A DNA stretch of 64,000 nt from Cyanobacterium sp. uoEpiScrs1 (GTDB lineage: Bacteria > Cyanobacteriota > Cyanobacteriia > Cyanobacteriales > Microcystaceae), in assembly GCF_947331815.1 (NCBI RefSeq), contig NZ_OX373462.1, positions 1,537,376 to 1,601,375 on the forward strand, read 5' to 3'. Position 1 is the first letter of the stretch; the number at the start of each line of letters is the position of its first letter. The translations under genes and the position numbers were made by a program. This document shows, piece after piece, positions 12,380 through 63,164 of this stretch. The notes under the pieces are model-generated. The model saw only the letters and a list, made by a program, of their open reading frames with translations, made no database searches and was not told the origin of the DNA.

Positions 12380-13493
12380 ATGGAAGCAACAGAACTAAAA
12401 CGAGAAATCCAAGGGTTTAGTACGCGCCTGGGTAAAACTCAGGAATATCTTTGACTTACCTGCTCTGAAAGCTAATATTCAAGATTTGGAAACTTTAGCT
12501 ACTCAGCCTGAGTTTTGGGATAATCCTGAAATAGCTCAAATAACTTTGCAACAACTTAACAATCTCAAATCTAGTGTCGAGCAATATCAACAGTGGCTAG
12601 ATAAATTAGAAGATGTAAAGGTAATTATTGAATTACTGGAGCTAGAAGAGGATGCAAATCTGTCTCAAGAAGCGGAGACAATTATTAGCCAACTTAACCG
12701 TGAACTTGATCGCTGGGAGTTACAACAATTATTGTCGGGTATTTATGACACTAAAGGAGCCTTTCTAACTATCAATGCAGGAGCCGGGGGAACCGATGCT
12801 CAAGACTGGGCACAGATGTTGTTGCGTATGTATACTCGTTGGGGAGAGAAACAAGGTTATAAAGTACATTTAGCTGAGCTTTCTGAAGGAGAAGAAGCCG
12901 GAATTAAGTCGGCTACTCTAGAGATAGAAGGACGCTATGCTTATGGCTACCTAAAAGGAGAAAAGGGAACTCATCGACTAGTGAGGATTTCCCCTTTTAA
13001 TGCTAATGGAAAACGGCAAACTAGTTTTGCGGGAGTAGAAGTTATGCCAGCCTTAGAAGAAGAAGATATTACTGTTGATATCCCTGAAAAAGATTTAGAA
13101 ATTACTACCACTCGTTCTGGCGGAAAAGGGGGGCAAAACGTTAACAAGGTAGAAACGGCAGTTCGTGTAGTTCACTTACCTACTGGAATTGCAGTTCGTT
13201 GTACACAAGAACGCTCCCAACTTCAGAATAAGGAAAAAGCTCTTGCCCTGCTTAAGGCAAAATTATTGATTATTGCTCGAGAACAACGTGCTCAAGAAAT
13301 TGCTGAAATTCGGGGAGATATAGTGGAAGCAGCTTGGGGCAATCAAATACGTAATTATGTTTTCCATCCTTACCAGATGATTAAAGATGTAAGGACAAAT
13401 AAGGAAACCACGGATGTCAATGGAGTTATGGATGGTAATCTTGACACTTTTATCGAGAGTTATCTGCGTTATAGGGGTCGTAGCGAAGACTAA
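12380..13493 (+). CDS. prfB: Peptide chain release factor 2, with programmed +1 frameshift
   Basis: Recognises UGA and UAA stop codons and triggers peptide release on the ribosome. The true start is ATG at 12380. The first 24 codons run into TGA at 12452-12454 inside CTTTGAC, and a +1 shift continues at GAC 12453 to the stop at 13493, giving about 370 residues, the normal RF2 length. In the shifted product the SPF stop-recognition tripeptide is near residues 204-206 and the catalytic GGQ near 250-252, as in E. coli RF2. A translation starting at the internal ATG 12486 would lose 35 residues and is not the native product. No neighbour shares an operon with it. Confidence 0.95.
12442..12455 (+). 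promoter_or_regulatory. prfB programmed +1 frameshift site
   Basis: AGGA (an internal Shine-Dalgarno) lies a few bases before CTT TGA C. When RF2 is scarce, slow termination at TGA allows the CUU-decoding tRNA to slip +1, so RF2 regulates its own synthesis. Layout matches the known bacterial site. Confidence 0.92.
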
Positions 13494-29194: not shown

Positions 29195-29965
29195 TGGTAC
29201 GTTATGACTCCTTTAAACCTGCTTCAAAATCCTTCACTATACTTAGTATCTTCCCAGAAATCTAGTAAATACACACAAATGCACTGGGAGACAAAACAAA
29301 AGCGTAGTCGGTATGACTTTTGCTTTATTCTATATTAGCTTATTTATCTAAATAATGGCAATTATCAAAGGAGTTATCGTTAATTTATACAAGCAGATTA
29401 ACGATAACTCCTTTCAGCGTGAAGATGACGTAACAACAAATTATGATAAAAGATTAAAGTTTAGATGTATTTTAGAATATTAGGATAACTATATTTCTTC
29501 GTAAACCATTTTACTAAACGATTGATTAATATGACTGACAAAAAATAAAGCTTAGCCATGAGTTTATACAACTTAAAATAAATACATCAATTCTAATAGT
29601 TATTTTTCAAGAACTATCTCAAAGGCATTATTAATAAATAATAGTAATTCTTAAATCTTAGAAAGAATTACAATAAAAGTTAACAAAAATATCTCTCAGA
29701 TTGAGTGTAATAAAAACTGAAGTGTTTGAAACCGTTATGTTTACTTGGTCAACTAAATTATTCATATCCATTTACTAATAGGCGAGGCTACCTTAAAAAT
29801 AAAAATTGTAGTCTCAATTGTTTAGAGATTATCATATCAAAGCAGAATAACTATCAAATTTATCTTGGATAGACTTGTACATTAAGAATAATAGAAGTAT
29901 TTTTCAAACTTGTCGAACTCATAATGCTCAATCAAATGATATGATTTACAAGGGGTTAATCCCTT
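29195..29965. other. Gap between sigma factor and tRNA gene
   Basis: About 770 bases. It contains the inverted repeat at 29367-29414, which ends no gene in view. The remainder is AT-rich with no recognised feature; the tRNA promoter should lie at its right end. Confidence 0.5.
29367..29414. repeat. 18-bp perfect inverted repeat, 12-nt loop
   Basis: Arms AAAGGAGTTATCGTTAAT and ATTAACGATAACTCCTTT. It lies 170 bp upstream of the sigma gene start and has no gene ending near it. It may be a terminator left from a lost gene or a leader structure of the sigma gene. Confidence 0.8.
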
Positions 29966-30299
29966 GGGGCTGTGGCTCAGCAGGATAGAGCAAGCGCCTC
30001 CTGAGGTTCGGGCATCATGGATGGAAACACCATGGATGAATGTGGTCAAATTCAAGGAAGCCTAAGTCTTCTTAATGATAAGGTAATCTTGAGCCAAGCT
30101 CTACGTCCCTGGTAGAGAAGGTGCAGAGACTGGTTGTAGATCGCCAAAGGGAAATAAAAACAGTAAGGCGAATCATATCTACAACATAACGGCCACCACC
30201 TAAGGGCATCAAGTCTAAGGCGAAGGAATAGTCCAGAGAGTGGGGAAACTCACACCAATCTGAAGCGCTAGGTCGCCGGTTCGAATCCGGCCAGTCCCG
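29966..30299 (+). tRNA. tRNA-Arg(CCU) interrupted by a group I intron
   Basis: Exon 1 is 29966-30002 and exon 2 is 30263-30299. Joined, they give an acceptor stem GGGGCTG/CAGTCCC, D stem GCTC/GAGC, anticodon stem AGCGC/GCGCT, loop CU-CCU-AA, T arm GCCGG-TTCGAAT-CCGGC and discriminator G. The anticodon CCU reads the AGG arginine codon. CCA is not encoded. The intron interrupts directly after the last anticodon base (U36), leaving the usual U before and G at the end of the intron. Only precise removal gives a seven-base anticodon loop, so splicing is needed for function. Confidence 0.95.
30003..30262 (+). ncRNA. Group I self-splicing intron in tRNA-Arg(CCU)
   Basis: 260 nt, no ORF or homing endonuclease. 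Core elements resemble the cyanobacterial and plastid tRNA-Leu intron: an AATTCAAGGAAGCCTAAGTC block (P4/P5) near 30048, a returning GGTAATCTTGAGCC block (P5'/P4'), AAGGTGCAGAGACTGG (P6'/P7) near 30118-30133 and ATAGTCC (P7') near 30228-30234. The intron ends in G at 30262, the expected terminal guanosine. Inserted after U36, as in the tRNA-Arg(CCU) intron known from Agrobacterium. Structural class IC3 is likely by resemblance. Confidence 0.93.
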
Positions 30300-30599: not shown

Positions 30600-31196
30600 A
30601 TGTTGTTAAAAATCAATAAAAAAAAACATTGTGTAACAGTTCTTTTATCAATGATTCATCCGAGGTATAAATTATGGACTCTAATTTTGTTTATGGGCAT
30701 TAGTCTGTGGGCGGGGTATAAAGAATTACAGAGTTATATAGTACAACCTGAAGCAATTTTTGTTTTGGGAGGACATGAAGAACGCGAACACTTTGCCGCT
30801 CAATTGGCTACTCAACACCGCGATCTCCCAATTTGGGTGTCTTCTGGAAGTCCTCAAAGCTATGCCAAAAAGATTTTCAGAGAAGCAGGTATTTCGAGTA
30901 CTCGCCTTTATCTAGACTATCGAGCAAGGGATACAGTAACTAACTTTACAACTCTAGTAGATACCTTAAAAATACAGGGCATTAATAGTGTTTATTTGGT
31001 AACTTCCGCTAATCACATGAACCGTGCTCGCATCATTGGGGAAATTATTTTTGGTACTCGGGGAATTATACTTAAACCTATAGCCGTTGAGTGTGATCGT
31101 CCTCCAGAACCCTTCAAAAAAATTCTCAGAGATGTAGCCAGATCACTGCTGTGGTTGGGAACAGGAAAGACAGGGGAAACTTTAATTGTTCCTTAA
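30600..31196 (+). CDS. YdcF/DUF218-family envelope protein
   Basis: 198 residues: a short basic N-terminus, one membrane span (about residues 25-42) and a DUF218 (SanA/ElyC/YdcF) domain outside. Visible are AIFVLGGHEEREHFAAQLAT near residue 53, LPIWVSSGSP, the YLDYRARDTVTNF block and LVTSANHMNRARIIGEIIF. Related proteins affect envelope integrity and precursor lipid handling in E. coli. An internal ATG at 30651 (MIHPRYKLW) is an alternative start closer to the span. It is 105 bp upstream of gltX on the same strand and may be co-transcribed with it. Confidence 0.8.
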   Translation: MLLKINKKKHCVTVLLSMIHPRYKLWTLILFMGISLWAGYKELQSYIVQPEAIFVLGGHEEREHFAAQLATQHRDLPIWVSSGSPQSYAKKIFREAGISSTRLYLDYRARDTVTNFTTLVDTLKIQGINSVYLVTSANHMNRARIIGEIIFGTRGIILKPIAVECDRPPEPFKKILRDVARSLLWLGTGKTGETLIVP

Positions 31197-61811: not shown

Positions 61812-63164
61812 TCACTCAATTACGGATATCAAAGGGGTAGTATAAACGATAAGTTCAGCATCCTCAAGAGAAGAGATTACTTTACATTCATTTTGTACCC
61901 AATAGTTTCGACCAAAGCGAACAAATTTTTGTTGGTTGCCAATGCCGATTATAGCAATAACAGGAATTTTAGCTTTTAGTGTATCCTTATGATTTTCCTG
62001 TAAAATTCTTTTTAAATTCTGTTGAAAATTTTGATTAACTGCCTGTTTAATAGTTAATTTAACTATTAAAATTTTTACGTTGTCTACAATTTCTCCATCT
62101 TCAATGATAAGTTGAACCTTATCATCTCGACGATCAACTTTACCCCAAATAATCAGCTGATTATCTTCAACTAATAGTTCTTTAATACGTTTGTAAACTT
62201 CAGAAAAAACTACCCCTTCTGATTGTCCTGAAACATCTTCTAATGTTAGAAATGCCATTTCTTTTCCAGTTTTTGTTACTATTTTTTTTACCTCATTAAC
62301 GATAACAACAGCACTGATTTTAGATTTAGATTTTTTATTTTCTAGCTCACTTAAATTGATCGGAGATAAAATCTTAGCTGCTTCTTTCACTGACTTTAAC
62401 GGATGTTCAGAAATATAAAAACCTAAATATTCTTTTTCTAGCTTAAGTCGTTGGGGTTGCGGGAAATCAGCTACAGGGGAAGAGCTTGGTTCCTGATTAA
62501 ATTCAGACTGATTATTATTATTATTTTGAATACCATTTCCTAGCATATCAAAAATATTTAATTGACCAGTTTCTTTCTCCTTAGCTCGTTTTTGTGCCCA
62601 AGAAATAACTAAATCAATATCATTTATCAGTTGATTTCGGTTTGCTTTAACTTTATCAAATGCTCCACAGTAGATTAAAGTTTCTAAGGATCGCCTATTG
62701 ACTACTCGTAAGTCAACACGACAACAAAAATCAGCTAAAGATTTAAAAGATCCTTCTTTATTCCTAGCTTTTAATATATTATCAATAGTTCCTTCTCCCA
62801 AGTTTTTTACTGCTGACAGACCAAATAAGATGTTATCTCCAATGGGAACAAAATCTTTTTGAGAACGGTTAACATCAGGAGAAATAATATGAATTCCCAT
62901 CTTTTGGCAATTCTCTCGGTACTTTTCTATCTTATCTTGATTGTCGCTACTAGCTGTCAATAAGGCAGTCATGTATTCGACCGGATAATTTGCTTTTAAA
63001 TAAGCAGTTTGATACGTAATATAAGCATAAGCAGTTGAGTGAGATTTATTAAAACAGTTAGATGCGACCGTGCCGTTAGCGAGCAGAAAATTATGATCTT
63101 GAGCAACTCCAATATCATAAACTGGTCTTTTTCCTAAAGACTTACAACTAATGATTTTAGCCAT
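61812..63164 (-). CDS. dnaE: DNA polymerase III alpha, C-terminal half with split intein C-fragment
   Basis: 450 residues: a 36-residue intein C-fragment followed by the C-terminal half of the replicative polymerase catalytic subunit. The intein part runs from [19 protein letters not shown] to GTVASN, and the extein begins with Cys in [20 protein letters not shown]. The rest is the finger/palm end, helix-hairpin-helix region and an OB fold near residues 280-370 ([15 protein letters not shown] and [10 protein letters not shown]). Trans-splicing with the separately encoded N-half is needed for an active subunit. The N-half is not in the window. Length fits the Synechocystis type. Confidence 0.97.
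63057..63164 (-). other. DnaE split intein, C-fragment coding segment
   Basis: Encodes residues 1-36 of the dnaE-C product. The block [16 protein letters not shown] is typical of the cyanobacterial DnaE inteins, ending in Asn before the +1 Cys of the extein. Terminal Asn cyclisation and the Cys nucleophile are both available, so splicing competence looks intact. Confidence 0.95.

Follow-up and report, generated by a model that had tools for sequence, protein, structure and literature searches.

A group I intron behind the anticodon of tRNA-Arg(CCU) in a cyanobacterial endosymbiont, and the LAGLIDADG proteins of its relatives

The genome of the nitrogen-fixing endosymbiont Cyanobacterium sp. 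uoEpiScrs1 consists of 2,483,960 bases in one contig. We analysed a stretch of 64,000 nucleotides from it (“the window”), in which positions 29966-30299 hold a tRNA-Arg(CCU) gene with a group I intron of 260 nt inserted behind U36, at 30003-30262 (Table 1). The locus raises the question of whether such an intron can still be at work in a reduced genome, and what has kept it there.

The interrupted gene and the boundaries of the intron

Read together by eye, the two exons form an acceptor stem GGGGCUG/CAGUCCC with one G-U pair. The anticodon arm has a stem of 5 bp (AGCGC/GCGCU) and a loop of seven bases, CUCCUAA, that contains the anticodon CCU. The coordinates of the initial annotation were exact to the base, and its tRNA identity and restored full cloverleaf are borne out. 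As expected for an interrupted gene, ARAGORN reported no tRNA in the window; gene finders miss this tRNA-Arg(CCU), and its annotation is corrected here. An inverted repeat, AAGGG-GTTAAT-CCCTT, lies at 29950-29965 of the window and ends directly at the tRNA 5' end.

Relatives with an intronless tRNA-Arg(CCU) carry the exact empty site, CCTCCT followed by AAGC with no base between, at 16 of the 18 loci fetched (13 by pattern and 3 by eye; L045 and L047 did not match the exon-1 pattern). The boundaries at 30003 and 30262 are therefore secure, and the proposed insertion after U36 is borne out. One further locus, L092 in G116, has a pair of tRNA-Arg(CCU) 5' halves at a distance of 67 bases. An exon 2 follows immediately on the second half, and this copy is an intronless partial or tandem duplicate.

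To the Rfam group I intron model RF00028 the intron matched over the full model length with 67.5 bits (E 4e-16), above the curated gathering cut-off of 50. The match is therefore not due to chance, and the covariance-model check agrees with the group I identity first assigned from the sequence. A third RF00028 match in the genome, at C1:311079, scored 16.9 bits, and the stretch there (L053) had no match at E 0.01. At the same E-value RF00028 gave matches in 8 of 14 control genomes, only two of them over the cut-off; we rejected C1:311079, whose score is below the cut-off, as an intron. A TUG1_3 match (E 0.62) was set aside as chance, and a search of plasmids found nothing.

The Rfam tRNA model found 39 tRNAs in the genome, to which come two interrupted genes, the split tRNA-Arg(CCU) and tRNA-Leu(UAA). 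The two published sister endosymbiont genomes are given with 39 tRNAs each (PMC5638926). Besides the split CCU, the arginine anticodons found were UCU, ACG and CCG, so that the split gene is the only tRNA-Arg(CCU) found in the genome. The tRNA-Leu(UAA) intron belongs to the same Rfam family (91.3 bits) and has a similar core, 78% identical over 86 nt, as the initial annotation had anticipated in ascribing tRNA-Leu-type core elements to the tRNA-Arg intron; in contrast, it sits in a different tRNA and has, by eye, no hairpin between P7 and P3. The window intron may be of the IC3 type, the subgroup of tRNA introns.

Table 1. Features of the tRNA-Arg(CCU) locus in window coordinates
Feature	Position	Strand	Evidence
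tRNA-Arg(CCU) 5' exon, ends in anticodon CCU (30000-30002)	29966..30002	+	sequence reading; uninterrupted counterpart in relatives
Group I intron, 260 nt, without an ORF of at least 60 aa	30003..30262	+	RF00028; empty site in relatives
Internal guide GGG, pairs with exon CCU; U30002.G30010 at 5' splice site, short P1	30010..30012	+	GGG invariant in 48/48; pairing predicted from sequence
P2 with GAAA loop (30024-30027)	30016..30034	+	two-sided changes in all 7 pairs; pairing in 90.7% of cells
P3 5' strand (3' strand 30191-30196)	30042..30047	+	99.7% of cells paired
P4 5' strand (3' strand 30088-30093)	30051..30056	+	98.6% of cells paired; 4/6 pairs change on both sides
P5	30061..30083	+	MFE fold; mapping over 48 introns
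P6 and P6a	30094..30121	+	P6a: two-sided changes in 6/6 pairs; pairing in 95.5% of cells
P7 5' strand GACU (3' strand 30230-30233 AGUC), pseudoknot	30128..30131	+	paired in 48/48, no variation
Extra 53-nt hairpin between P7 5' and P3 3'; place of LAGLIDADG ORF in relatives	30133..30185	+	pairing over 48 introns; same stem borders relatives' ORF
P3 3' strand	30191..30196	+	mapping over 48 introns
P8	30199..30220	+	89% of cells paired
P7 3' strand	30230..30233	+	mapping over 48 introns
P9 with GAAA loop	30240..30253	+	100% of cells paired
Terminal intron G (omega-G)	30262..30262	+	invariant in 48/48
tRNA-Arg(CCU) 3' exon	30263..30299	+	sequence reading; uninterrupted counterpart in relatives
Downstream gene, 198 aa, conserved neighbor of the tRNA	30600..31196	+	tblastn: in 48/77 tRNA/intron loci

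Fold of the intron and proposed splicing

We mapped P2, P3, P4, P5, P6, P6a, P7, P8, P9 and the extra hairpin onto 48 distinct ORF-less introns, that of the window included. Standard pairs occupied 91.1% of the 2800 cells spanned by the 61 pairs, and 38 of these pairs had changes on both sides. None of 500 shuffles reached the observed values on any of five measures. When the partners were slid by 1-3 columns, covariation fell to at most 0.083 (0.289 for the true structure) and pairing to at most 42.1%, although on pairing the true version is favored from the outset, as the structure was drawn from the window sequence. A P3-P9 core with the P7 pseudoknot, P7 being paired in 100% of cells, is thus backed by covariation, which bears out the group I core that had been read from the window alone. 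Set against 100 shuffles, the single pre-tRNA has a better fold than 97 of them (z -2.38). Its MFE fold contains P2-P6, P8 and P9, the same helices as the mapped structure except for the pseudoknot P7. In the extra hairpin, 8 of the 9 pairs of the outer stem change on both sides (80.3% of cells paired); its inner 4 bp are paired in only 44% of cells.

With boundaries and fold established, splicing would follow the steps of known group I introns. After transcription the intron would fold, and a guanosine bound at P7, which we take to be the guanosine site, would cut after U36, which is held to the guide GGG by a U.G pair. Once free, U36 would attack behind the terminal G of the intron, and joining of the exons would give a normal 74-nt tRNA-Arg reading AGG. 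As in other group I introns, the base before the 5' splice site is a U (U30002) opposite a guide G (G30010) and the intron ends in G (G30262). The P1 pairing, modelled on known introns, would have only 3 bp, and P10 looks weak by eye.

The window intron belongs to an established kind, and alphaproteobacteria have introns at the same site. Group I introns with CCT flanks occur in tRNA-Arg(CCU) of Agrobacterium and, as BbgpI, of Bartonella, and that of Bartonella bacilliformis reportedly self-splices in vitro and also splices in vivo (PMC7717549). Like the window intron, they are small, and lie directly behind the anticodon CCU of the same tRNA gene, a tRNA that standard annotation misses (PMC7717549). 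In contrast, they belong to a different phylum, their likeness to the cyanobacterial introns, as compared here, is one of site, and the passages of PMC7717549 that describe them mention no ORF-bearing members. The window intron is a genuine group I intron, without an ORF and probably active.

Group I introns have a minimum size near 200 nt. The “group I introns” of about 22-49 nt described in tRNA-Arg(ACG), Gly and Lys (PMC5733544) are far too short for this class, and we rejected them as examples of the present feature. In the openly licensed literature searched, we found no description of a cyanobacterial tRNA-Arg(CCU) intron or of its LAGLIDADG ORF.

An intact homing endonuclease ORF, the mark of a mobile group I intron, was not found in the window copy, and the genome held no relative of the LAGLIDADG protein described below at E 1e-5. 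Both results uphold the earlier statement that the intron has no endonuclease. The window copy thus cannot home by a protein of its own and must splice without that protein's help.

One alternative is that the intron is dead; the genome being in erosion, the split gene would then be a pseudogene, and AGG would be read by tRNA-Arg(UCU) alone. The latter tRNA is present, AGG is rare (29 of 9171 codons in 23 window ORFs), and the congener G006 has a far larger genome (4.8 Mb against 2.48 Mb). This is nevertheless very unlikely, as all core helices of the window copy are intact in both the MFE fold and the mapped structure and the exons still form a full cloverleaf. Moreover, 6-8% of intron positions differ from G001, G003 and G005, yet no core helix is broken. 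The codon and tRNA data do weaken one of the two reasons for persistence offered by the initial annotation, a tight link to an essential tRNA: the split gene is the only tRNA-Arg(CCU) found, but tRNA-Arg(UCU) could wobble onto the rare AGG. The split tRNA is single but perhaps not strictly essential.

Distribution and descent

The intron is carried by 35 of 59 relatives, the window's own genome included (by reading of the match table). In an even sample of 386 genomes across the phylum, with matches listed down to about E 2e-4, at least 33 have it, and every one of these belongs to the window's order; very diverged copies outside the order could be missed by this BLAST survey. G287 was counted on exon 1 and the intron start, with N thereafter. 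The intron is thus common in the order, a point that lay beyond the reach of the initial annotation, as did the LAGLIDADG ORF that relatives have in it. All seven genomes of the window's genus (G000-G006) carry it, and the window intron is 91.9-93.5% identical to those of G001, G003 and G005, 88.1% to that of G002 and 81-82% to those of G004 and G006.

Across the order, the intron core loosely follows the GltX distances of the hosts (Spearman 0.39 over 54 genomes). None of 2000 permutations was as high (highest 0.31); the test covered 54 of 55 introns, leaving out G028, which is without a joined GltX. Near the window, host and intron trees largely agree, in that the endosymbiont genus groups with its free-living relatives, and G014 and G008 stand with the genomes of 1.4-1.5 Mb. 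On the other hand, the introns of f26, G159 and G007 fall in the window's intron cluster though their hosts stand elsewhere. In the intron tree, 30 of 51 inner forks are without resolution. In an AU test, a single intron clade for the window's family was not rejected (p 0.138), a result that does not demonstrate the clade.

The extra hairpin is absent from 8 of the 48 ORF-less introns, whose core is still present. Six of the eight form one fully supported clade across five families, which includes G143 and G309; the remaining two (G049 and G154) are placed elsewhere in the tree. Close relatives of G143 (L070, f2) and G309 (L087, f25) carry the hairpin type, and these two are cases of intron replacement at one locus. 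The conflicts between host and intron trees indicate that inheritance is not purely vertical, and that descent has been mixed with replacement and loss.

That this is one old locus is indicated by the gene downstream of the tRNA, which recurs beside it in relatives (Table 1). Its product had no NCBIfam match; we take it to be YdcF-like.

A recent horizontal transfer that brought the intron into the endosymbiont lineage has to be considered, since group I introns move and replacement did occur over the order, in G143 and G309. It is extremely unlikely here: every genome of the genus carries the intron at graded identities to the window copy, and the genome has no relative of the LAGLIDADG protein at E 1e-5. 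Vertical inheritance, the other reason given at the outset for persistence, is supported near the window, where the groups are much as in the hosts. In the order as a whole there has been replacement and loss as well, and the cluster of the window intron includes some distant ones.

We conclude with high confidence that the window holds an ORF-less group I intron after U36, an old resident of this locus in the order, which was inherited with the host in the window's lineage and kept through genome reduction, and which lost its LAGLIDADG ORF or never had one. Vertical inheritance together with harmless splicing best accounts for its survival in the endosymbiont. Two tRNA group I introns have thus outlasted genome reduction in a nitrogen-fixing endosymbiont, a parallel to plastids, which keep the tRNA-Leu intron.

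Two further elements were noted in the window. The C-terminal DnaE half at 61812-63164 (- strand) starts with an intein C-terminal region (TIGR01443), so the split DnaE intein seems to have been kept in the reduced genome too. In prfB (12380-13493, + strand, in-frame ATG at 12380), CTT TGA C at 12449-12455 is preceded by AGGA and resembles the site at which release factor 2 undergoes its programmed +1 frameshift.

The LAGLIDADG ORF of related introns

In 6 of the 386 phylum genomes the tRNA-Arg intron contains a LAGLIDADG ORF; three weaker matches in this set (E 1e-6 to 1e-9) proved to be other proteins. Seven of the ORFs were aligned, and the three proteins tested matched LAGLIDADG_2 (PF03161) with E about 1e-33. 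Long ORF-bearing introns score below the RF00028 cut-off (L034 35.9, L035 40.2 and L036 30.3 bits). A scan of 84,980 species genomes yielded 27 LAGLIDADG loci, of which 25 were placed in tRNA-Arg(CCU), 24 by script and L100, with its slightly different exon 2, by eye; the hosts are filamentous relatives. As for the other two, L126 shows exon 1 and the intron start before the sequence ends, and L125 (30% identity) has no tRNA-Arg(CCU). The same search in viral contigs found nothing.

The ORF sits between P7 and P3, where the window has its 53-nt hairpin. The stem that borders it corresponds to the one in ORF-less introns and differs from it in a compensatory way. At least five contiguous pairs form in 22 of 28 introns, and three more (L105, L106 and L112) have one C-A mismatch and are otherwise full by eye; these statements leave out L118, L119 and L122, in which the script mislocated the 3' end of the stem. 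Some ORF members begin KIDxHV, and in these the start codon is ambiguous. In L100-L104 and L111 a ribosome-binding-like GGAG before the ORF is paired within the bordering stem, and in most relatives the last ORF codons, encoding NITATT before the stop and the like, are the P3/P8 core itself. From these two features we infer that translation and folding may compete.

The window copy either lost this ORF or never had one. A shrunken in-frame relic (GTG CAG AGA CTG GTT GTA ... ACA ACA TAA) was considered and rejected, because the relatives' ORF ends in another frame and the likeness is by chance. It could be speculated that the extra hairpin is a mere scar of a deleted ORF, without purpose. This is consistent with the shared stem at the border of the ORF and with the hairpin-less introns that keep their core. 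However, among ORF-less introns nearly all pairs of the outer stem show two-sided changes that preserve it, which suggests that the stem assists folding or holds the insert aside, and we regard the scar as possible but rather doubtful.

We aligned 28 of the proteins (ORF loci L034, L035, L084, L086 and L100-L124) to I-SceI and I-WcaI. The two columns that we take, by reference to I-SceI, to be the catalytic aspartates lie in motifs that are otherwise fixed, yet they are among the most variable (ranks 4 and 14 of 207 by entropy). The first aspartate is kept in 9 of the 28 proteins, the second in 4 and both in 2, that of G369 being one with both. Neither is present in 17, one of which has Glu in the first position; the Laspinema protein has lost both. 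When the tree was built with these columns left out, each of them changed 10 times (per-column median 4, maximum 15). Scored as aspartate or not, each column needs only 3 changes; the losses were therefore few and old, and the positions then drifted.

The frames are well kept, as 26 of 28 run for at least 200 codons from ten residues before motif 1. By a simple counting method, under which distant pairs are saturated, dN/dS had a median of 0.18 (87 pairs; L110, which stops early, and the truncated L123 and L124 were left out). In a six-member clade lacking both aspartates it was 0.12-0.33 in all 15 pairs. The predicted fold of one dead protein (pLDDT 91) aligned with I-SceI over 186 residues (Z 20.8, rmsd 2.5), and with I-WcaI (Z 20.3), WhiA (13.5), the bI3 maturase (11.4) and I-AniI (10.9). 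Since the regulator WhiA is among these matches, the fold does not tell the function.

That the nuclease residues are mostly lost while the protein stays under purifying selection would fit a helper in splicing better than a nuclease. From these sequences, the straightforward reading would be that the relatives' protein is kept for binding RNA, as a maturase, and a LAGLIDADG fold encoded in a group I intron is what such maturases present; a DNA-binding role is also conceivable. The surprise at this locus is the nuclease-dead protein of the relatives, not the ordinary intron of the window. As a tentative account, which falls just short of probable, the protein would have largely given up DNA cutting and been kept as a splicing factor of the tRNA intron. 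The ribosome-binding site in the stem and the last codons in the core would make folding and translation mutually exclusive, and the endosymbiont lineage would keep the intron without the protein. If this were true, the filamentous relatives and the nitrogen-fixing endosymbiont lineage would form a with/without pair for maturase dependence. The family allows a comparison, at one intron site, of a LAGLIDADG protein that has lost its nuclease residues, one that is maintained and none at all.

Cyanobacterial tRNA introns with a protein gene have a precedent in the tRNA-fMet intron of Synechocystis; in contrast to the LAGLIDADG_2 proteins of the window's relatives, its I-Ssp6803I belongs to the PD-(D/E)xK family (PMC1995217). 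The relatives' protein shares a LAGLIDADG fold within a group I intron with the maturases yeast bI3 and I-AniI and with the protein of the Thermotoga neapolitana 23S intron, already reported as a LAGLIDADG maturase (PMC3984707). It differs from these in being a cyanobacterial, putative maturase in a tRNA intron, and the window copy of this intron lacks the protein.
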